Source: Fodinibius salicampi
Lineage (GTDB): Bacteria; Bacteroidota; Rhodothermia; Balneolales; Balneolaceae
Direction: 5' to 3'
Assembly (NCBI RefSeq): GCF_039545095.1
Contig: NZ_BAABRS010000002.1
Coordinates: 62,001-126,000, forward strand
DNA: 64,000 nucleotides
The translations under genes were made by a program, and so were the position numbers. Below are positions 14,862 to 27,283 of the stretch, in pieces; the stretch's first letter is position 1, and each line of letters begins with the position of its first letter. Under the pieces are notes generated by a model. The model ran no database searches. It had not been told where the DNA came from and was given only the letters and a program-made list of their open reading frames with translations.

Positions 14862-17800
14862 CTAAAAAAGTCCGAGTTGTTCTTCCTTATTTTGCTCGCT
14901 GTCTGATGATTTTTTTAAAAATGACACCTTTTTAGTGATATAATCCTTCGAAATTTCGTCAATAAAACGGGAAGGCTGCATAGATTCTTTTGTTCCAAAG
15001 CGCCAGCGCTCCTTGGAATGAGTAATTTGAAGCTCATCTTCGGCCCGGGTCATGGCTACATAAAAAAGCCTGCGCTCTTCTTCAATATTAGTATCTTCAC
15101 GCAATATAGGAGTAACTCCTTCTTCGGCGGCAGCAATAAAAACGACCGGAAATTCAAGTCCCTTAGCTGAGTGAAATGTCAGAAGATGTACAGCTTGCTT
15201 TTTGAGCCGTCCTGCATCTGTATAAGGATTAAGCTGGAGCCGTTCCACAAAGCGGCTGATTTCTCCTTCTGATTCTGCGGCAAGCTCCAGGAGTGTCTCT
15301 TTTTTTAATTGCTGGGGTTTGCTCATTTTTTCATCTTCGATGAAGTGATCACAGATAGTGGTTACAGCGTCCAACAGCTGTGGATTAGATTCGGTTAGTG
15401 AGGCGGTTTTTTTATATATATTGGATAAATCAGTAAGGTCTTCGAACAGAGATTGGCTAATTGTTTCTTTTATGGCTTTACTAAACAGAGATGTTTGGGA
15501 TTTTGTTAAAGATTGAAGCAATGAAGTAATTTGTTTTTGGTTCCACTCATATACTTCTTTGAGGATGTTACTGAGAATAAGGCGATCGTTGGGTTGCTGT
15601 ACTAATCGAAGTAGGTCCCCTACGACCGTAAACGGAGGTTCTTTTAAAAAAGAAGTACCGTCCCCAAAATGGACGGGAATTCCAGATTTTAATAATGATT
15701 TGAAGAGTGCTTCTCCTACCGAATTGGTGCGGAAAAGTATGGCTATATCTCCAAACCCATAGCTGTATTGGCTGTCGGTATGCGTGCCGGTTGTAAGGCT
15801 TTCAGTACCCCCGACATAGCGATTGATCTGGTTAAGAATATAATCTGCTTCCCGGTAGGGATTTTCGGTACCAACACTGAAAATGGGATGATCAGATGTA
15901 CGCTGGGCCGCCAGTTCATTTCTTATATGCTCTCTATTATGCTGAATAAGCGAGGATGCTGCTTTCAGAATAGAATCGGTTGACCGGTAATTTTGTTTAA
16001 GCGAAATATTACGGGCATCAAAATCACTCTCGAAGCGAAAGAAAAGGGATACATCGGATCCGCGGAAACCATAAATAGCTTGATCGGCATCCCCAATGGC
16101 CAGTAAATCCTGTTCCCGGCCCAATAATTTGACTAGCTGGTACTGCAGGGGATTGATATCCTGAAATTCATCCACAGCCAATATACTACAGCGCTTACGA
16201 AGTCCTGAACGCCATTGCCTGTTCGACTTTAGTTCTCCGAGGGTACGGTGAATAATGTCGGAGATATCTATAACGCCCTGCTCCCAAAGATGTTTGCGAT
16301 AAGTAGCAACCTGATCTTTAAATCGCGGTTCTATATCTTTATCAAATTCTAAAAAGTCCGTCAACTGCTCAAAGAGACTATTACGATCTGTTTTGTTTAA
16401 ATCGGGGAAAAGTATTCGCAATGTCATCTTTCGGTTAGAGGCATCGTAAACTGTTGTAAGGTGGGGGAATTGTTCTTGTAGCCATCGCCAGCAGAGGGCG
16501 TGAAAAGTACCAGTGGATATGCTTTCAGCTTGTGGACCAACACGACTGAGAAGCCGGTCTTTGATTTCATCAGCTGCTTTGTTTGTAAAGGTTATGGCTG
16601 TAATCTCTGAAGGAGTATTGTTTTCTTTTATTTGTCGGGATAGCCATTCAATGAGAGTATGGGTTTTGCCGGTTCCCGGACCCGCTTTTACCAATGTTGC
16701 ACCTTTTGTTGCATCCACAACAGACTGTTGCTCCTTATTTAATTTAGGCGTGTTGGTAGCCGGTGCCTTTGTTTCTTTCGCAGGCGCGATGTTTGATGAT
16801 TCAGGATTATTGGATTCTGTTTGGTTTGTGTTCTGATTGGAAAAGAATCCCAGTTGTCCTCGTATGCGTTCAATTTCACCGCGCCCAAAAACATTGATAA
16901 CTCCATATACCCCGTCATAGCCGGGCTGGGGATGAACTGCATTATTACGAATACGTTTGATTGCTTCCGCTAATACAGGTCCCGCTTTTTTGCGGATATC
17001 TTCAATGGGTACTTCATGGAGCAGGGTAAACTCGTTTCCGAATGCTGAAATTATACGCCGGAATTTCTTTCGGACGGTTTTAGTATCGGGACCTACGTCT
17101 TCAATTTCACCTAAGACTTCGGGCAGGGGAATGATATATTGATAATCAGCTGCATTCGTGGGTTGCTGCGATTCCACCCGGTCGGCCAGTGCCTCAACAC
17201 GGTGAAGTACACCAACAGTTAGTGGTTTGCCACACTGGGGACAAATATTATCATGCTCCATACTTTGTTGGGGCTCAAATGAGATATCACACTTTCTATG
17301 CCCATCGTGATGATACTTGCCTTCCTGCGGATAGAATTCATAGGTGCCCATAAATCCATTACCTGTTTTGAACGCCTCGAACATAGCATCATAGCTGAGC
17401 TCGGTATCCAATAGGTTGGCTTCGCGCCCCAGCTTGGAGGGAGAGTGGGCATCAGAATTGGAAATGAGCGTGAAACGGTCAAGGGCGCTAAGCTTCCAAT
17501 TCATAGCCGGATCGGACGAAAGCCCCGTTTCAACGGCAAAAAGATGATTGGAAAGATCACGAAAACAGTTATCAATGCTATCGTAGCCCGCCTTGGATCC
17601 AAGCGTTGAAAACCAAGGGGTCCAGATATGGGCGGGAACCAGATGAGCGCGTTCAGAAGTATCCAGAACAATCTCCAGCAGGTCGCGGGAAGGAAGACCC
17701 AGGATAGGGCGTCCATCGGCTTCTAAATTTCCAATGGATGCGAGCTTGTGATTAAGGCGCTCCACGGTATCCAGATCCGGAGCATAGACTAGGTTATGAT

Positions 17801-18116
17801 TTTTACGGATCCGGTCTCCGTACTTATAAATGGAGCTTATTTCGGTTGTCAGGCAGAAGCGGACATCAATATCTTTTGTCCGAATGCCCGGGATAGCTGG
17901 ATCGCCCGGGGGATCTTTTAGCGTAAAGAAACCGCTACCGTCCGGCTGTAACTTTTCTTTGAGTTCGGAAAACCATTCCGGATGAGTAAAATCCCCGGTT
18001 CCAACCACATTGATACCTTTAATTTTTGCCCACTGGTATAGTGACTTAAGATTCAGATTTTTGCTGGTAGCCCGGGAGAAATGAGAGTGAACATGAAGAT
18101 CCGAAATGTATGGCAT
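14862..18116 (-). CDS. Endonuclease Q-like PHP nuclease fused to UvrD-type helicase
   Basis: A 1084-residue two-enzyme fusion. Residues 1-420 match the EndoQ/TIGR00375 family: PHP metal residues DLHVHSHFS (6-14), GTGDFTHP (39-46) and ISNSDAHS (218-225). A Zn site has Cys276, Cys292 and Cys295, followed by LTVGVLHRVEALADR. EndoQ nicks DNA 5' of deaminated bases. A Gln/Asn/Pro-rich linker (about 425-457) leads to a superfamily 1A helicase with Walker A AGPGTGKT, Walker B VDEFQD and late motifs FHSAKGLEFPVVF and LFYVAMTRAEDEL. The likely role is damage incision coupled to strand unwinding. The architecture is clear; the activity is inferred. Confidence 0.9.
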   Translation of the reverse strand: MPYISDLHVHSHFSRATSKNLNLKSLYQWAKIKGINVVGTGDFTHPEWFSELKEKLQPDGSGFFTLKDPPGDPAIPGIRTKDIDVRFCLTTEISSIYKYGDRIRKNHNLVYAPDLDTVERLNHKLASIGNLEADGRPILGLPSRDLLEIVLDTSERAHLVPAHIWTPWFSTLGSKAGYDSIDNCFRDLSNHLFAVETGLSSDPAMNWKLSALDRFTLISNSDAHSPSKLGREANLLDTELSYDAMFEAFKTGNGFMGTYEFYPQEGKYHHDGHRKCDISFEPQQSMEHDNICPQCGKPLTVGVLHRVEALADRVESQQPTNAADYQYIIPLPEVLGEIEDVGPDTKTVRKKFRRIISAFGNEFTLLHEVPIEDIRKKAGPVLAEAIKRIRNNAVHPQPGYDGVYGVINVFGRGEIERIRGQLGFFSNQNTNQTESNNPESSNIAPAKETKAPATNTPKLNKEQQSVVDATKGATLVKAGPGTGKTHTLIEWLSRQIKENNTPSEITAITFTNKAADEIKDRLLSRVGPQAESISTGTFHALCWRWLQEQFPHLTTVYDASNRKMTLRILFPDLNKTDRNSLFEQLTDFLEFDKDIEPRFKDQVATYRKHLWEQGVIDISDIIHRTLGELKSNRQWRSGLRKRCSILAVDEFQDINPLQYQLVKLLGREQDLLAIGDADQAIYGFRGSDVSLFFRFESDFDARNISLKQNYRSTDSILKAASSLIQHNREHIRNELAAQRTSDHPIFSVGTENPYREADYILNQINRYVGGTESLTTGTHTDSQYSYGFGDIAILFRTNSVGEALFKSLLKSGIPVHFGDGTSFLKEPPFTVVGDLLRLVQQPNDRLILSNILKEVYEWNQKQITSLLQSLTKSQTSLFSKAIKETISQSLFEDLTDLSNIYKKTASLTESNPQLLDAVTTICDHFIEDEKMSKPQQLKKETLLELAAESEGEISRFVERLQLNPYTDAGRLKKQAVHLLTFHSAKGLEFPVVFIAAAEEGVTPILREDTNIEEERRLFYVAMTRAEDELQITHSKERWRFGTKESMQPSRFIDEISKDYITKKVSFLKKSSDSEQNKEEQLGLF

Positions 18117-20627: not shown

Positions 20628-21380
20628 TTAATTTTGATTTATTTCGACCGTATTACCCTTTCCTGATTGTCGAATGGTTGCCTCATTATTGTTACCGATC
20701 TGCTCAATATTAACCCAATTTGAATCCCCATTCTGAACGGCATCAATGCTATTGTTTCTACCTGTTTGAGAGCTTTTAATCCAATTGTTATATCCAGTCT
20801 GCAGTGCGTTATTGATATTGGCTATATTGGTTAAGCCTTCAAAGGCAATATCCTGGTATGCTGCATTGGATGAACCGTTCTGGGTGACCATCAAAGAGTT
20901 ATAATATCCATTCAGAATATTTTGAACGGCTGTATTTTGATTTCCTATTGAGCAAATAACAAGATCTGAAAAGCTGTTGTTTAGAACAGAATGCCCCGCA
21001 TAATTTGAGTATCCAACCTGAGTAACTACTTGATCATTGAACGGGCTGTTCGCCTTTAGCTGTTTATATTCGTTATTCGAACCCATATCATTATAATAAT
21101 GCGACTTGAGGGTATCGGTTGTGTCTGTACGATCCTTTCCGGAAGCCACTTGACTGGTACCAATCAAGGTAAAGGCCTGTTTGCTTATCGAGAGGTTATT
21201 ATTGAAACCAATTGATCGTAAAGAAGGGGAGTTAACCTCAAAAGTGTCTGGTTTAGATATTACACCAAACGAAATTCCATTCTGGCTTCCTTCTTTATTA
21301 AAATTCAGAAAAATAAGGCTGCTGACAAGTAGAAAAGTCAGAAGCCCTGGAAGGCAATATTTTGTTAGGACTGTCTTCAC
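20628..21380 (-). CDS. Curlin-repeat protein, distal member of curli cluster
   Basis: A 250-residue secreted protein with an N-terminal hydrophobic signal segment (LPGLLTFLLVSSLIFLNF) and a GTG start at 21380. From about residue 110 it has degenerate curlin repeats of the form N-x-A-x3-Q-x-G-x2-N, for example IEQIGNNNEATIRQSGKGN near the end. The first 100 residues lack the repeats. It ends in INQN, like the two major curlins. It probably acts as a minor subunit or nucleator of the amyloid fibre. It is the last gene of the cluster, 47 bp after the Ig-like lipoprotein gene. Confidence 0.75.
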   Translation of the reverse strand: MKTVLTKYCLPGLLTFLLVSSLIFLNFNKEGSQNGISFGVISKPDTFEVNSPSLRSIGFNNNLSISKQAFTLIGTSQVASGKDRTDTTDTLKSHYYNDMGSNNEYKQLKANSPFNDQVVTQVGYSNYAGHSVLNNSFSDLVICSIGNQNTAVQNILNGYYNSLMVTQNGSSNAAYQDIAFEGLTNIANINNALQTGYNNWIKSSQTGRNNSIDAVQNGDSNWVNIEQIGNNNEATIRQSGKGNTVEINQN

Positions 21381-21427
21381 TAAATATGTTCTGATATTGT
21401 GATATTGCCTTTTTATTCCAAGGGCAA

Positions 21428-22051
21428 TTAGTTAGAAGTAAATGTCCCACTTACGGTCACAGAATCTATAGTGGCCTGCCGGACATACTTTTTAAATTCT
21501 GCAATATCTTTTTCTCCCGCAGCCAGGGTCGTATCACGTTCTTCCCAGGAGAAGGTCTCCCCAGAAGTATGTATGTCGAAGTAGACTTCATATTGGTTGA
21601 TATCGGTATCATCGCTGGTATTTTCTACTTCATATTGGACTTCAGCAAAAGTACTGTCATTATTTGAGGTTTCAGCCCATGTCGTTACCCGGGCTGAAAG
21701 ATACTTTTCCCCGTTTCCGCCTTCCGGATCTAAATAGATTTGGGCGGTTGCTGCCTTATTTTCACGAACCCGAACGCTTACACTTGAAGATTCGAAATCT
21801 GATTTTTGGGCGGACACAGAATACTGTCCGGTGGGGACTTCATTTAGTACAAAAGTGCCATCTTCATTAGTGGTAATGGAATTAGTAGCAGGATTGGTTG
21901 TTACATTGACTCCCCGGATCCCTTCCTCCGTTTCACTATTGAAAATCTGTCCCTCAATACTTCCGAACAATTCCGGGGAAATCGTTTCCTTGGAACAGCC
22001 CACAAAGATGATGATGCAAGTAATGAATGTCAGAAAATATTTAATACTCAT
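21428..22051 (-). CDS. Lipoprotein with carboxypeptidase-regulatory-like and Ig-like domains
   Basis: A 207-residue lipoprotein; lipobox IFVGC with the Cys at residue 19. Residues 30-110 form a carboxypeptidase regulatory-like beta-sandwich (GSIEGQIFNSETEEGIRGV, then EDGTFVLNEVPTGQYSV). Residues 115-207 look like a second beta-sandwich resembling FxLYD/Ig-like domains (AEVQYEVENTSD, then LAAGEKDIAEF). It is embedded between two curlin-repeat genes in tight spacing, so a role in fibre assembly, anchoring or chaperoning is likely. CsgC and CsgH of other curli systems are also small Ig-like proteins, but sequence similarity to them is not visible. Confidence 0.7.
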   Translation of the reverse strand: MSIKYFLTFITCIIIFVGCSKETISPELFGSIEGQIFNSETEEGIRGVNVTTNPATNSITTNEDGTFVLNEVPTGQYSVSAQKSDFESSSVSVRVRENKAATAQIYLDPEGGNGEKYLSARVTTWAETSNNDSTFAEVQYEVENTSDDTDINQYEVYFDIHTSGETFSWEERDTTLAAGEKDIAEFKKYVRQATIDSVTVSGTFTSN

Positions 22052-22074
22052 AAAACAGAAAGGTAAAGTGTTTT

Positions 22075-22635
22075 TTAATTGTTTCTTATTATAATCGGAA
22101 GATTGCGTCGGGTTGATCGGATATTAAATGCCGGCGTAGTACTGTTTTGAGGCGTAAGGCTAAAGGTGTTGCCCGACTGACTGGCATTATATTTTATGTC
22201 ATTTCCTTGAAACAGAAATAATGCTCCGCGATTTTGGCCCTGCTGCAGAAATTCGAGGGCATTATTATTTCCTTCCATGTTAATAATCGAAAGCAAAGAA
22301 CTCCCTTGCTGTGTGGATTTGGCATAGTTATTATTGCCCAGCATGTTGATAATGCCCGTATTGCCACTGCCGTATTGTTCAAGGATAGCTTCATTGCCAC
22401 TTCCCTCCTGATTGATAATTGCCCGGTTATTATTACTGAAGTCTAAATCCGACTCGTTAAGTACATCCAATAACCCAAAAGCATATTTGAAGCTAAACTC
22501 TTTGACGGCACTGTTATGTTCAATGCCAGGATTTTCAACCTGGTTGACAAATGCTTCACTGTCCTGGGCCAGCATAGAAACAGGCCCGAAAAGGCAAAAT
22601 GTGATTAGAATCAGTAGTAGTTTGTAAATTTTCAT
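22075..22635 (-). CDS. CsgB-like curlin-repeat protein with basic C-terminus
   Basis: A 186-residue secreted protein: signal peptide ending at LAQ, a linker, then about five curlin-type repeats from residue 66 (NNRAIINQEGSGNEAILEQ and onward). Unlike the other curlin proteins here it ends in a non-repeat tail containing arginines (STRRNLPIIIRNN). In E. coli the nucleator CsgB also has a charged C-terminal repeat needed for cell attachment, so a nucleator role is a reasonable inference. GGAGG lies 5 bases before the ATG. It follows csgG by 40 bp. Confidence 0.78.
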   Translation of the reverse strand: MKIYKLLLILITFCLFGPVSMLAQDSEAFVNQVENPGIEHNSAVKEFSFKYAFGLLDVLNESDLDFSNNNRAIINQEGSGNEAILEQYGSGNTGIINMLGNNNYAKSTQQGSSLLSIINMEGNNNALEFLQQGQNRGALFLFQGNDIKYNASQSGNTFSLTPQNSTTPAFNIRSTRRNLPIIIRNN

Positions 22636-22675
22636 AATAACCTCCGTGTAATTTGATTAGACAGTTCCACAAAAA

Positions 22676-24028
22676 TCATAATCCAATGGAAACGCCTGTG
22701 GATATATTCCACTGTTGATCGTGTATTGACCCCCGGGTGACTCCATCAATACCGTCCTGAATCAGGTAGCGATAATTAAATCCGATGCGGAGCCCAAGAT
22801 TTTCAGAAAGCCGGTAATCCAGCCCCGCTTCGGCGTTTACCGAAGGAAAGAATGTGTTGTTCGTAAAGTCTGGCTGCTGGTCGTACATTAAGATGCCACC
22901 ACCCAGACCAATATAAGGTGAAAGCGTAAATTCCGGTGTTAAATACTTATTGAAACTAAAGTCGATATTTGTATAAGGTTCTGAGAAAACATCCTGTGCA
23001 CCTAATTGAGACCGGTGACCGCTCAGTTTAAGCGAATTGGAGGAACCAAAGAAATATTCGCTCTGCAGGGCAATTCCACCTGCCTTTTTAGATATCGGAT
23101 AGCTTCCGATATGGCTTCCAAAAATTAGGTTAGTGGACAGGTTGAGTCCGGAACGCAGATTACTATTTTCAGTCATGCCGAAATAATTAGTTTCTGCCCT
23201 TTGTTTCCATTCCTTCACTTGTTCAAAATTCTCTTTATACTGCGCGTATTCAGAGCTATCCTGTGGACTCCATAACCCATCTTCTACTCCTTCCACAATC
23301 AGTGTTTTAACCGCTTCGTCAATAGCTTCGGTTACTGCCATTACGGGAGGCTCGTTATAGGTAAAGCCAGCCTCGGCTTCCAGCAGGCGATTGGTATCCA
23401 CATAGCGAAATGCCCCGCTTTCGAGCTGCTGGGAGATAACGGATTTGGTAGTATGAACGGTTTTCATAATACGCCCTGTCTGGGTTGAAACAGCTCTCAG
23501 ATAAATTGTTACCTGATCCTTGCGGAACTGCCCGGAACCGCCCGTTCCTAAAAATCGAACGCCGCCACCCCCAGTAATGACGTTAGTATCGTAGCCGATG
23601 ATGCCGCCCTCAAGCAGTACACCACCAAAGAGCAGGGGAGGGAGCTGCCCGCTTTGGTTGTTCTGCTGTCGTGTTTTGCTGATAATTTCGCGTTCATTGA
23701 GCAGGTTCGAAATACCTTCACGTTCAATAGGGGTAAACCATCCTGAATCTTCCATTGATTTTATGAGGATGGAAGTAGCTCCCTGTGTTACAGCGGTCGA
23801 CCAGCTTGCTCCGCGATTAGAGGGTTTATACTGTCCTGTTTGGTCCCGGAATCGATAGACAGCCGCCACCACCTTATCCTGCGGGGCCGGCATATTGGTA
23901 AGAGATTCATGTACTTTGCTGTTTATTCCCGGTTTAACGCGCTCGGTTTCCAGCGGTTGAAGAGAAGAGGCACATCCAGCCGTTAATAGCAAGCAAAACA
24001 GTAGAAATATGGATACTTTTTTATGCAT
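22676..24028 (-). CDS. csgG: CsgG-family curli secretion lipoprotein with C-terminal beta-barrel
   Basis: Outer-membrane export channel for curli subunits. I place the start at 24028 (MHKKVSIFLLF) because the upstream frame runs into a terminator stem; ATG 24046 is possible. The lipobox is LLTAGC. The CsgG domain (about residues 25-275) shows DKVVAAVYRFRDQTGQYKP, GGWFTPIERE-type and LLEGGIIGYDTNV features. A further 170 residues follow a Lys/Glu-rich helix and look like an eight-stranded barrel (YIGLGGGILMYD, LGLRIGFNYRYL). E. coli CsgG has about 277 residues, so this is a fusion. The barrel's role is unknown. Confidence 0.9.
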   Translation of the reverse strand: MHKKVSIFLLFCLLLTAGCASSLQPLETERVKPGINSKVHESLTNMPAPQDKVVAAVYRFRDQTGQYKPSNRGASWSTAVTQGATSILIKSMEDSGWFTPIEREGISNLLNEREIISKTRQQNNQSGQLPPLLFGGVLLEGGIIGYDTNVITGGGGVRFLGTGGSGQFRKDQVTIYLRAVSTQTGRIMKTVHTTKSVISQQLESGAFRYVDTNRLLEAEAGFTYNEPPVMAVTEAIDEAVKTLIVEGVEDGLWSPQDSSEYAQYKENFEQVKEWKQRAETNYFGMTENSNLRSGLNLSTNLIFGSHIGSYPISKKAGGIALQSEYFFGSSNSLKLSGHRSQLGAQDVFSEPYTNIDFSFNKYLTPEFTLSPYIGLGGGILMYDQQPDFTNNTFFPSVNAEAGLDYRLSENLGLRIGFNYRYLIQDGIDGVTRGSIHDQQWNISTGVSIGL

Positions 24029-24065
24029 CAAAAGGCAGCCGTTCATTACGGTTAGGTTAAAGTGT

Positions 24066-24108
24066 ATAAAAAGAAAAACCGCGGGAGGCAGGTTCAAGCC
24101 TCCCCGGT
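24066..24108 (-). terminator. Terminator/attenuator between curlin and csgG genes
   Basis: Stem ACCG-C-GGGAGGC paired with GCCTCCC-CGGT (24078-24108, one bulge), followed in the minus sense by a T-rich run. It lies just after the 300-residue curlin stop and before csgG. It should give more curlin than CsgG transcript. Confidence 0.7.
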
Positions 24109-24120
24109 CAGAAACCTCAT

Positions 24121-25020
24121 TTAGTTTTGTGTAACCGTTGCGGTATTAGCGGCACCAATTTGGTCAACGGTAGCAATGTTGTTATCCGAATATTGGTAAA
24201 TAGAAGCATCACTGTCTTGAGACAACATGTTATTACCAACGCCTTGATAGATAATCGCATTATTTAAGTCTCCATCCTGTAATATGTAACCGGTATTATT
24301 AAATGCAGACCCCCCGTTAATACCTTGGTGTATACGCACACCATCGCCATTAGTACCATTACTATCACCATTTTGAATAATAGTACCCGTGTTATTATCA
24401 GCCGTTCCTGCTCCTGAACCGGGCCCGGCGAGTGATAATTTTGATCCTTGCAAGATGGTAGTTGACGAATTATTATTCCCATTTTGGGTTAGCGAAGCAA
24501 CATTATCCAAAGAGAATGATTGTGCCTGAACACCTTGATAGATTATACCTGTGTTTCCTGCTCCAGCTTGATTTATAGTTGCATTTCCTCCCTCGGTTGT
24601 ACCTAAAAGACCCTGACGAATCTGAGCGGTATTTCCTTGTTGTTTTTGCTCTACTGAAGCATTTGCTGAAATAGCAGTACCGCCTTGATATACTCCCTGT
24701 AGGATGGCAGCATAACCACTAGTTCCGGATTGATTTATTGAACTTGTAGAATTAATAGCAGTACCGGCATCACCCTGAATAATGAATGCTTCAAAATTAC
24801 CGTTTTGAGTGACTGTCGCTTCGTTATTTTCTGCTAATGCTTTAGGACTTGAACCATATTTTTGAGTCCCTTGATATACTGATGCATTGTTGCTACCCAC
24901 TTGGGTTACTATTGCTTCATTGTTATCCCCAATTTGTTCAGTTTCAGCATTGTTTTGTGCATGCGTTATGCTCGCAGTGAGTATAACGGCCATTGCAAGT
25001 ATAATTATCTTTTTCATCAT
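24121..25020 (-). CDS. Curlin-repeat protein, candidate major fibre subunit
   Basis: A 299-residue secreted protein: signal peptide ending at THAQ, then about twelve Asn/Gln/Gly-rich repeats built on N-x-A-x-V-x-Q-x-G-x2-N, from NNEAIVTQVGSNN to the C-terminal NTATVTQN. This is the curlin repeat that stacks into the cross-beta solenoid of CsgA-type amyloid. Repeat spacing is irregular because of Gly/Ser/Thr-rich inserts of 5-20 residues, and the protein is twice as long as E. coli CsgA. It is flanked on both sides by terminators and may be expressed strongly on its own. Confidence 0.85.
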   Translation of the reverse strand: MMKKIIILAMAVILTASITHAQNNAETEQIGDNNEAIVTQVGSNNASVYQGTQKYGSSPKALAENNEATVTQNGNFEAFIIQGDAGTAINSTSSINQSGTSGYAAILQGVYQGGTAISANASVEQKQQGNTAQIRQGLLGTTEGGNATINQAGAGNTGIIYQGVQAQSFSLDNVASLTQNGNNNSSTTILQGSKLSLAGPGSGAGTADNNTGTIIQNGDSNGTNGDGVRIHQGINGGSAFNNTGYILQDGDLNNAIIYQGVGNNMLSQDSDASIYQYSDNNIATVDQIGAANTATVTQN

Positions 25021-25086
25021 CAATGTGACTAAAATTTTATCATTGAATATTTACTGATATGAGGTTTTTTAATTATTACATCATAT

Positions 25087-25121
25087 CAAAAAAAGAAAGC
25101 ATCCCGTTCAAGGGATGCTTT
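25087..25121 (-). terminator. Terminator after upstream curlin gene
   Basis: A perfect hairpin GAAAGCATCCC-(6 nt)-GGGATGCTTTC at 25094-25121, followed in the minus sense by seven T. It sits 14 bp after the stop of the 202-residue curlin. Confidence 0.85.
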
Positions 25122-25134
25122 CAAAACAGAATGA

Positions 25135-25743
25135 TTAGTTAGATTGCGTGATATTAGCAGTATTACTGTTACCGATTTGATCTACGTCAGCAAATTGACC
25201 ACTACCGGTTTGTCCAACATTAGCGTAATTGTGATCTCCATCCTGAAGGATAAGAGCATCACTATTGAAGGTATTTGCATTAACACCCTGTCCCACAGTA
25301 GCGTGGTTGCGGTAGCCATCCTGAATTACCTCGAGTAAATTATTCTCGGCATAGGCACCAACAGCTTGTCCGGGATTTGTAAAGTTTTGTGTACCCGATT
25401 GCTGGATGATAGCCTCGTTGTTTTGGGAGTTTCCTCCGTCATAGCCTTGGCTAACTAGGGCTGCATTCCAAGAACCACTCTGTTCAATCGTTGCATCGTT
25501 GTCATCGGCATGTCCAGATCCTACAGCAATGGTAGAGAATGGACCTGTGGGACTAGTTGTTCTTATTGCAAAGTCAGTGGTATTCTCACCTTGACCAACG
25601 GTAGCTTGGTTATTGTCACCGACCTGATCGATGCTGGCCTCGTTGCCAGTATTTACCTGATCGATATTGGCATCGTTGTTTTGACCGAAGGCCAAGCCTG
25701 CAGTCAAAAATAATGCAAATGTAAGTGTCATTAGCTTCTTCAT
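25135..25743 (-). CDS. Curlin-repeat protein, second candidate major subunit
   Basis: A 202-residue secreted curlin: signal peptide ending at AFGQ, then about eight repeats (NNDANIDQ, NEASIDQVGDNNQATVGQ and so on to NTANITQSN). A 30-residue non-repeat insert lies near residue 55. It is separated by a terminator from the larger curlin that follows. The ATG has AGGATAAC upstream. A 22-bp perfect palindrome lies 63-84 bp upstream of the start and may be a regulatory site. Its length is closest to canonical CsgA. Confidence 0.87.
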   Translation of the reverse strand: MKKLMTLTFALFLTAGLAFGQNNDANIDQVNTGNEASIDQVGDNNQATVGQGENTTDFAIRTTSPTGPFSTIAVGSGHADDNDATIEQSGSWNAALVSQGYDGGNSQNNEAIIQQSGTQNFTNPGQAVGAYAENNLLEVIQDGYRNHATVGQGVNANTFNSDALILQDGDHNYANVGQTGSGQFADVDQIGNSNTANITQSN

Positions 25744-25805
25744 AGTAGTTATCCTCTTGTTTTATTTGAGTTAGCTTGATTAAGCTATTCCGATTATTCG
25801 GATGT

Positions 25806-25827
25806 GATTTGGAAATATTTCCAAATC
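25806..25827. promoter_or_regulatory. 22-bp perfect palindrome upstream of curlin genes
   Basis: Arms GATTTGGAAAT and ATTTCCAAATC abut with no spacer. The site is 63-84 bp upstream of the first curlin start codon, a fit place for a dimeric regulator. No regulator gene is adjacent and the binding protein is unknown. Confidence 0.5.
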
Positions 25828-25920
25828 AAGAAGGAGTGAAACAATGAAGAGAGCTAACCGTTGAACAACTATCGAAGAGTTTGTACCTTATTTAATTAAG
25901 GATATTCAACGGGTGGCGTC

Positions 25921-25962
25921 AGAAGTTTCCCTAACTTCTGCTGGCAGTAATTGTCAGCAGAA
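25921..25962. other. Pair of hairpins in the csgF-curlin gap
   Basis: AGAAGTT/AACTTCT (25921-25939) and an 11-bp stem starting TTCTGCTG and ending CAGCAGAA (25936-25962) overlap and could be alternative folds. They lie about 90 nt after the csgF stop. Neither is followed by a T-run in the minus sense, so a simple terminator is doubtful. The rest of the 308-bp gap holds only the palindrome listed separately. Confidence 0.4.
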
Positions 25963-26051
25963 CGTTCTCTGGCGCTGCCCTCTTTTTTTGTCTCATCTCC
26001 TATATTCTTAGTGCAATTTTGTGTTTTAATTTATTGCTTCTCATTACTAAA

Positions 26052-26498
26052 CTAATTATTTCCCGAAAATCCTGTCGGTATGGTAATACTTGTTGATTCC
26101 CCGGAAAGAATATTTTGAATATCAATGCTTACGCCATCGGGGCCTGGATTGACATTTATGTTAAACTCTCCGAATTCATATGTGTTTTGTTCATCAAGAT
26201 TGATGTTATCTTCCCCAAATCGATCCCCGATAATTTGCCGAGTCAGCTGTGATAAAACCTGCCGCTGCAGCGATTGTTCAAAATTCGCCAAGGGATCCCG
26301 GTTGAAACCCGAACGTCCGCCCTGAAATTTGTTCTGCTGGTTAGCGGAATTCATCAACCAGCTGTAGTTAGCATATGTCCCGCCAAAGGCCGGGTTTTTG
26401 GGCTGGTATACAAAGTCCTGGGCGGCAGCCGAAAGCGATAAGCCCAATATCATAATGCCCGAAAGAATAAATGCGAATATTAATTTTTTGCTGTTCAT
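26052..26498 (-). CDS. csgF: CsgF curli assembly protein
   Basis: A periplasm-exported 148-residue protein that binds the CsgG pore and couples secretion to nucleation. The signal peptide ends at AAAQ. The mature N-terminus DFVYQPKNPAFGG matches the CsgF pore-binding peptide (aromatic, then NPxFGG), and NSANQQNKF follows as in the E. coli protein. The C-terminal half is a mixed segment ending in a Gly/Asn tail. It lies 26 bp after the LysM-CsgE gene and 308 bp before the first curlin. Confidence 0.92.
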   Translation of the reverse strand: MNSKKLIFAFILSGIMILGLSLSAAAQDFVYQPKNPAFGGTYANYSWLMNSANQQNKFQGGRSGFNRDPLANFEQSLQRQVLSQLTRQIIGDRFGEDNINLDEQNTYEFGEFNINVNPGPDGVSIDIQNILSGESTSITIPTGFSGNN

Positions 26499-26524
26499 AG
26501 TCTTATTTCTTCATTTTCTTTGTA

Positions 26525-27283
26525 TTAATAGCCCAGCATTGCGTTTGATGAAGATTGTTGACGCAATAAGCTGCGATAGCAGATTGCCACTGCATGTTTG
26601 GCAACTTTCTCAGTGTAAGCATATTTGGGCTGCAGTCGATTCTGAAATACCTTTTCGTTATCAATACTAATAGAAATCACGGATCCACGCCCCGGCGTAG
26701 GCTGCTCAGAGATCGTGATCATAAAGTTTTTGGCTTTTGAAGGGGGCTCCCAGTGGCGATAAAAAACATTGTAAAAGTCGGTCCCCATTTTGCTACGTGT
26801 TTCGTCGAGTACCATGCCATCAATGGCGATCGTCGAACTTTGGCCGGAAGATTCTGTTTGCTGTTTTTTCTCTTCCCGTCTTTCTTGTTCAACGACCTTC
26901 TTAAAGGCCTTCTGAAATTTATTTAGGGTTTTTTTATCCAGACCTTCCTTTTTGTTGTCTGTAAATTGTTTTTGGTATTCTTTCTTCAGCCGCTCAGGAT
27001 TATCGACTAGGGCAGTATCCCGGATGCTTACCATCTCGGCGGGGATATCCAGTTTTTGACCAATATAAATGATATCGGGCCTTTTAATCTTGTCTGAGTT
27101 AGCATTGTAGATTTGTTCCCAGTAGTTGGGATTGCCAAAATCTACGGCGATGCTGATCAGGTAATCACCATCTTTAACGGTATACTGGTAAGGCACATTT
27201 TTATTTTGATCTTGAGCACAAAGCGTTGTGCTAAAAAGAATGGTAGCAACAAAAGATATAATAATGCTAGATCTTAGCCCCAT
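26525..27283 (-). CDS. csgE: LysM-CsgE fusion protein
   Basis: A 252-residue exported protein. After a signal peptide (to about residue 23), residues 30-80 form a LysM-type domain (YTVKDGDYLISIA, then NPNYWEQIYNANSDKI and YIGQKLDIP). A charged helical linker rich in Lys/Glu/Gln follows (about 95-145). Residues 150-245 are a CsgE domain (AIDGMVLDETRSKMGTDFY, then KNFMITISEQPTPGRGS). CsgE caps CsgG and selects substrates; LysM domains bind peptidoglycan. The fusion may hold the secretion complex at the cell wall. It is the first gene of the cluster, so its promoter should lie in 27284-27450. Confidence 0.88.
   Translation of the reverse strand: MGLRSSIIISFVATILFSTTLCAQDQNKNVPYQYTVKDGDYLISIAVDFGNPNYWEQIYNANSDKIKRPDIIYIGQKLDIPAEMVSIRDTALVDNPERLKKEYQKQFTDNKKEGLDKKTLNKFQKAFKKVVEQERREEKKQQTESSGQSSTIAIDGMVLDETRSKMGTDFYNVFYRHWEPPSKAKNFMITISEQPTPGRGSVISISIDNEKVFQNRLQPKYAYTEKVAKHAVAICYRSLLRQQSSSNAMLGY

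Follow-up and report, generated by a model that had tools for sequence, protein, structure and literature searches.

What is known of curli biology is based almost entirely on Escherichia coli, whose csgBAC and csgDEFG genes form two divergent operons. In the Bacteroidetes, the absence of csgC and csgD and the presence of several curlin genes per genome have already been reported (Dueholm 2012, PMC3521004, text without figures), genomes with as many as 30 curlin copies have been recorded (Sleutel 2023, PMC10192328), Bacteroidetes curli with multiple, large curlins are described in these two works, and a CsgH-like subfamily has been noted (Taylor 2016, PMC4838910). Here we present the csg locus at positions 20628-27283 of a 64,000-nucleotide (nt) stretch of the genome of Fodinibius salicampi, a member of the Balneolaceae in class Rhodothermia (contig NZ_BAABRS010000002.1, positions 62,001 to 126,000), hereafter the window. 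We read this locus, with a rough probability of 0.8, as a complete curli (type VIII secretion) operon of the Bacteroidota type, in which subunit output is controlled at the RNA level.

As in E. coli, the locus encodes CsgE, CsgF, a CsgG pore (37% identity to 4uv2), curlin repeats and a CsgB-like minor subunit. It differs in forming one co-directional operon, in having no CsgC and no CsgD beside the csg genes, and in adding a LysM domain on CsgE, a barrel on CsgG, a transthyretin (TTR)-like lipoprotein, four curlins and an RNA leader. The lack of csgC and csgD and the several csgA/B homologs are shared with the Bacteroidetes curli of Dueholm 2012; in the sections of that paper covered here, figures excluded, there is no mention of the CsgG barrel, the lipoprotein, LysM-CsgE or the leader RNA. 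The features of the locus are as follows, with lengths in amino acids (aa).

26525-27283, minus strand: csgE with an N-terminal LysM domain, 252 aa (Pfam CsgE 2.4e-21, 76.4 bits; LysM 3.3e-9, 37.0 bits)
26052-26498, minus strand: csgF, 148 aa (Pfam CsgF 1.2e-35, 123 bits)
25832-26002, minus strand: structured leader RNA 5' of the curlin 1 gene (fold z -7.75, compensatory pairs, single copy, no Rfam match)
25911-25980, minus strand: conserved core of the leader RNA, helix GGCARCGCYRG / YYRACGYYRCC around a variable hairpin (model R2, 48.8 bits)
25135-25743, minus strand: curlin 1, 202 aa, acidic, isoelectric point 4.1 (Pfam Curlin_rpt 7.5e-25, five stretches)
25095-25122, minus strand: intrinsic-terminator-like hairpin 3' of curlin 1 (11-pair stem, then seven T)
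24121-25023, minus strand: curlin 2, 300 aa (Pfam Curlin_rpt 2.8e-15)
24083-24104, minus strand: terminator-like hairpin 3' of curlin 2 (same class as that after curlin 1)
22676-24046, minus strand: csgG, lipoprotein pore subunit with a C-terminal eight-stranded outer-membrane barrel, 456 aa (Pfam CsgG 5e-66, 222 bits; AlphaFold, Foldseek)
22075-22635, minus strand: CsgB-like minor curlin and putative nucleator, 186 aa, few repeats, conserved C-terminal tail (Curlin_rpt 2e-6)
21428-22051, minus strand: TTR-like (CarboxypepD_reg) lipoprotein, putative surface factor (Pfam 2.7e-13, 50.5 bits; Foldseek 5aq0)
20628-21380, minus strand: curlin 4, 250 aa, C-terminal 11-residue QxGxxN period (Curlin_rpt 6.3e-9)

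A sequence-only reading of the window had proposed eight leftward genes of a curli-like system in this interval, and all eight are present as intact minus-strand open reading frames (ORFs). Its family assignments were borne out by Pfam, the curated cut-offs of which are exceeded by CsgE, LysM, CsgF, CsgG, the four proteins with curlin repeats (Curlin_rpt, 87.0, 56.4, 28.1 and 36.1 bits) and the CarboxypepD_reg lipoprotein, with CsgE and CsgF both encoded within the locus. The extra domains it had seen on two export parts correspond to LysM on CsgE and the barrel on CsgG. Its report of a missing CsgC extends to the whole genome, where no CsgC/CsgH-like sequence was found (best E 0.33), and its failure to recognise CsgD agrees with the lack of a recognised LuxR-type gene beside the locus, the rest of the genome not having been searched for one. 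The structured RNA at 25832-26002 had been overlooked.

Locus anatomy was compared, using profiles built from Balneolales proteins, across two sets, 56 csg stretches taken from genomes and 80 named loci spanning Bacteroidota and Ignavibacteria; a few records are common to both. The csg genes are syntenic among relatives, as the sequence-only reading had suggested checking, and because of this synteny (CsgE in 16/59 genomes) the gene set is far beyond chance. CsgE is patchily distributed, being present in those 16 relatives, in 32/165 class genomes and in 44/392 phylum genomes. The host genome (3.94 Mb, 11 contigs, completeness 98.5%) encodes CsgE once, indicating a single-copy secretion system, and a whole-genome scan confines curlin repeats to this locus.

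The spacer that separates csgF from curlin 1 is 308 nt long and has a folding energy of -88 kcal/mol, whereas shuffled sequences give -54.1 +/- 4.4 (z = -7.75); none of 100 shuffles is equally stable. Six species of the genus retain the element at 166-171 nt with compensatory changes. It occurs once in the genome, and a dispersed repeat or mobile element was rejected on this ground. In the core helix, computed over 17 sequences, 81.6% of pairs are standard, with 21 two-sided changes and no one-sided change; this covariation is reached by 0/500 shuffles and is lost on sliding the partner strand. A C-A mismatch within the helix is retained in nearly all sequences, an internal GCA.C is invariant across classes, and the variable hairpin tolerates large changes. 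The leader position and the conserved core helix with a variable hairpin are also found in riboswitch and leader families of Rfam 15. However, no Rfam 15 family matches the spacer RNA at gathering score, and relaxed thresholds return microRNA and small RNA chance matches on the opposite strand, so a known riboswitch was rejected.

Two models of the leader RNA, R1 and R2, were searched; the E-values of R2 are rough, due to a short calibration, and weak true sites may be lost. Model R1 extends the RNA to additional loci, among them one in a distant Bacteroidota genome (L068, E 2.4e-8), and also finds it 5' of an orphan curlin on another contig of genome G024 (54.5 bits). A 26-bit R1 match (G003:C6), located where two converging genes meet, was judged to be chance. 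The held-out sites of R2 (L045, L035, L056, a third copy in L033, two in L027, L050/L083 and L092) directly precede curlin genes, the exception being L092, which lies straight 3' of csgG at a contig end. R2 matches below 1e-5 are limited to csg loci in the 162 class and 392 phylum genomes. Six weak matches (E 0.001 to 0.015) in phylum genomes negative for CsgE were discarded, fitting the chance expectation for 392 genomes. Of the 20 occurrences of the core pattern in 4.41 Mb of loci, counting both strands, 14 fall among 140 pre-curlin gaps, and the leader is present in 19 of the 22 Balneolales loci having a machine-curlin junction. The gene 5' of the leader varies (csgF, csgG, csgE, another curlin or no csg gene), and the gene 3' is a curlin wherever visible. 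Conserved structure, sense orientation and a constant downstream gene class, as expected of a cis-regulatory leader, are all found for this RNA.

Two arrangements of the leader stand out. At L033:6126-8526 (+), the core occurs three times in one operon, each copy 5' of a different curlin gene. The orphan curlin of G024 (L177:7410-8524, +, ~278 aa) lies outside the csg operon with the leader 5' of its gene.

Terminator-like hairpins lie directly 3' of 22 of the 55 curlins (0.9 expected from shuffles) versus 0 of the 68 csgE/F/G genes, and curlins 1 and 2 of the host locus are among these 22. Taken with the leader RNA, these hairpins suggest that expression of the curlin cistrons is modular and separate from that of the machine, in which case curlin mRNA would be made or kept separately from machine mRNA. 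Such modularity, if true, would allow a system with a single operon to supply each pore with the many subunits it needs.

Given that machine and subunits share one operon with neither CsgC/CsgH nor an adjacent CsgD-type regulator, subunit output would be set at the RNA level. We infer a cis-regulatory leader that sets subunit output apart from the machine, with the probable effect that fibre protein is made from the same operon in far larger amounts than the export machine. A tentative proposal, held at somewhat less than even odds, is that the spacer RNA represents an undescribed Bacteroidota regulatory class for amyloid-subunit genes, which would bind a signal, such as a second messenger or a protein with affinity for RNA, switch the curlins and replace CsgD control. 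A passive processing or stability element, i.e., a 5' stem protecting curlin mRNA without sensing, is a serious possibility that stops short of being probable: it suits the bracketing of curlins by terminator-like hairpins, the need for subunits in excess over the machine and the tolerance of the variable hairpin, yet the invariant GCA.C and the near-invariant C-A mismatch, kept across classes, would be superfluous for a protective stem.

It is unlikely that the spacer acts as a DNA element (an operator, a cruciform or a remnant mobile palindrome) rather than as RNA. The sequence is a long (~170 nt) imperfect inverted repeat, and the reverse complement of some copies also receives weak scores. 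However, the orientation with the best score is sense to the curlin in every case, the compensatory changes are two-sided with none one-sided, the element has a single genomic copy and also occurs 5' of an orphan curlin, and strong matches are limited to csg loci.

Among the proteins, the CsgB-like protein scores 37.8 bits against the NCBIfam CsgB model, the cut-off of which is 165, and has a conserved degenerate C-terminus. Across Balneolales, two parts of it outside the repeats are conserved, an N-terminal stretch (IEHNxAV) and a C-terminal tail with IIIxN at its end, both of which are possible contact sites for CsgF or the lipoprotein. Curlin 4 starts with GTG. Very large curlins sit in some Rhodothermia and Flammeovirgaceae loci (488-730 aa in L059, L060 and L062; ~925 aa with 41 QxGxxN motifs in L106 and L117).

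The LysM domain on CsgE was detected in 24 of the 25 Balneolales loci (two weakly), in 0/12 other Rhodothermia and 0/20 other-class loci, and in 5/80 named loci, each labelled Balneolales or Balneolaceae. CsgC/CsgH was found in 0/25 genome-sampled Balneolales loci; a named Balneolales metagenome-assembled genome (L088) has both LysM-CsgE and CsgC/H. Most other Bacteroidota keep CsgC/CsgH, as a separate gene or as a CsgE fusion. In many of them, ORFs of ~104-192 aa lie just 5' of the lipoprotein gene (e.g., L064:8832-9236, L112:14393-14767, L051:8846-9262 and L088:6210-6635, all +), and the profile of this family matches PDB CsgH 2n59 (2.7e-9) and CsgC (3.4e-5). In flavobacterial and Saprospiraceae loci, the domain is fused to the N-terminus of CsgE (12/20 sampled, 19/80 named; profile link 2.3e-26); examples are L073:11997-12716 (-), L074, L075 and L077, with Pfam Tafi-CsgC at 4.5e-5, just sub-threshold. 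Kin of the described CsgH/CsgC chaperones (PMC4838910; 2N59, 2Y2Y) are therefore encoded in Bacteroidetes, with none detected in the host genome. Since the host genome and all 25 sampled Balneolales loci are without CsgC/H, the absence of csgC from the host is, on this sampling, a lineage loss. This loss and the LysM-CsgE fusion are, by the same comparison, the Balneolales-specific traits among the proteins: CsgE gained LysM where other lineages fuse or separately encode CsgC/CsgH. The chaperone-adaptor fusion itself exists in lineages where csgC had been reported missing.

With the Balneolales-built profile, the CsgG C-terminal domain is found on 131/131 CsgG ORFs of at least 430 aa; the NCBI model gives E. 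coli CsgG 277 positions. AlphaFold (43 sequences) models eight strands over residues 300-455, with a predicted local distance difference test (pLDDT) mostly >90. The Pfam score of the barrel is sub-threshold (22.8 bits vs 28.7). Foldseek matches this part to the eight-stranded outer-membrane barrels NspA (TMt 0.80), OmpA and OmpX, and the N-terminal part to E. coli CsgG 4uv2 (E 1e-18). Judging from these loci, the barrel is ordinary for Bacteroidota curli and no local rearrangement. If the CsgG nonamer is kept, nine accessory barrels would ring the pore.

The lipoprotein has an N-terminal TTR-like CarboxypepD_reg domain (Foldseek 5aq0, TMt 0.85) and a second beta-domain, the model of which is of low confidence and bears no claim. 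It is present in 17/25 Balneolales, 9/12 other Rhodothermia, 20/20 other-class and 70/80 named loci, and many loci without it are interrupted by contig ends; by these counts, it belongs to nearly every intact Bacteroidota csg locus and is normal for the phylum. It comes in two sizes, either short, with two domains in ~207-215 aa, or long, at ~500 aa, with repeats of the fn3 and beta-propeller types. Past the lipobox cysteine, 74% of 110 family lipoproteins are acidic at +3 and 71% at +4, versus 0% of 114 CsgG, a pattern resembling the signal for export of lipoproteins to the surface in Bacteroidetes (Lauber 2016, PMC5080379). Because of this likeness, a surface role (fibre anchoring or nucleation aid) is favoured, with modest confidence, over a periplasmic CsgC-like role. 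The host sequence, C-S-K-E-T, has one acidic residue, a weaker version of the signal.

That the lipoprotein is the missing CsgC, acting as a periplasmic anti-amyloid chaperone, is unlikely. The host genome is without CsgC/H, and the protein has two beta-sandwich domains, CsgC/H being Ig-like. However, the second domain has no profile similarity to the CsgC/H family and the fold search returned no CsgC/H, on which grounds a hidden CsgC was rejected; L088 and Rhodothermales loci encode the lipoprotein and CsgC/H together, and the family has the surface-export-like signal. The sequence-only reading had called this an Ig-like lipoprotein in a cluster with rearranged parts. It is a lipoprotein, with a fold more exactly TTR-like CarboxypepD_reg and a family signal of surface-export type. 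As to rearrangement, LysM-CsgE and the loss of CsgC/H are particular to Balneolales, and the barrel and the lipoprotein are ordinary for Bacteroidota.

Some results weigh against a complete operon with RNA-level control. The leader could be an internal stability element instead, its core is undetectable in the Balneolales loci L034, L040 and L046, and most non-Balneolales loci have no match. The CsgB identity stays under the NCBI cut-off, and surface exposure draws little support from the second lipoprotein domain and the C-S-K-E-T signal. A decaying or non-fibre-forming relic is very improbable, since the patchy distribution among relatives and the GTG start of curlin 4 are offset by eight intact frames, retained repeats, signal peptides and lipobox, covariation constraint on the RNA and conserved operon order.

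Computation establishes the protein families and their domain architecture, the barrel fold, the synteny, and both the covariation of the RNA and its curlin-specific position. We infer the fibre, the LysM tether, the surface anchoring, and the direction and trigger of RNA control in the following scheme. Curlins would cross via Sec as unfolded chains. CsgE would cap the CsgG pore on its periplasmic face and feed it, with LysM tethering the cap to peptidoglycan. CsgG would form the outer-membrane pore, its extra barrels making an accessory ring around it. The fibre would be nucleated at the surface by CsgF and the CsgB-like protein, aided by the TTR-like lipoprotein, and fibre anchoring plausibly differs from the E. 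coli model. Subunit output would be set at the RNA level, with the leader preceding curlin cistrons and terminator-like hairpins closing many of them.

Elsewhere in the window, the gene at 14862-18116 (-) encodes a UvrD-type helicase by Pfam from about residue 459; its N-terminal ~400 aa have a PHP phosphoesterase-like start (DLHVHSHFS) and no Pfam match.

In the literature searched (partial coverage, figures excluded), the LysM-CsgE fusion, the universal CsgG barrel, the universal TTR-like lipoprotein, the CsgC/H-CsgE fusion and a curlin leader RNA or riboswitch in Bacteroidetes are undescribed. Given this partial coverage, and since the RNA was tested against all of Rfam 15, the claim to novelty is safer for the RNA than for the protein architecture.

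These results indicate that, in the curli machine of Bacteroidota, each subunit of the pore bears a second barrel, and that the machine has its own lipoprotein, which belongs to a surface-type family. The leader RNA may be a new RNA class, and its model can be used as a genome-search marker for curlin genes, orphan ones included. As a curlin-specific element, it would offer a directly testable answer to the problem of many subunits and few pores in a single operon without CsgD.

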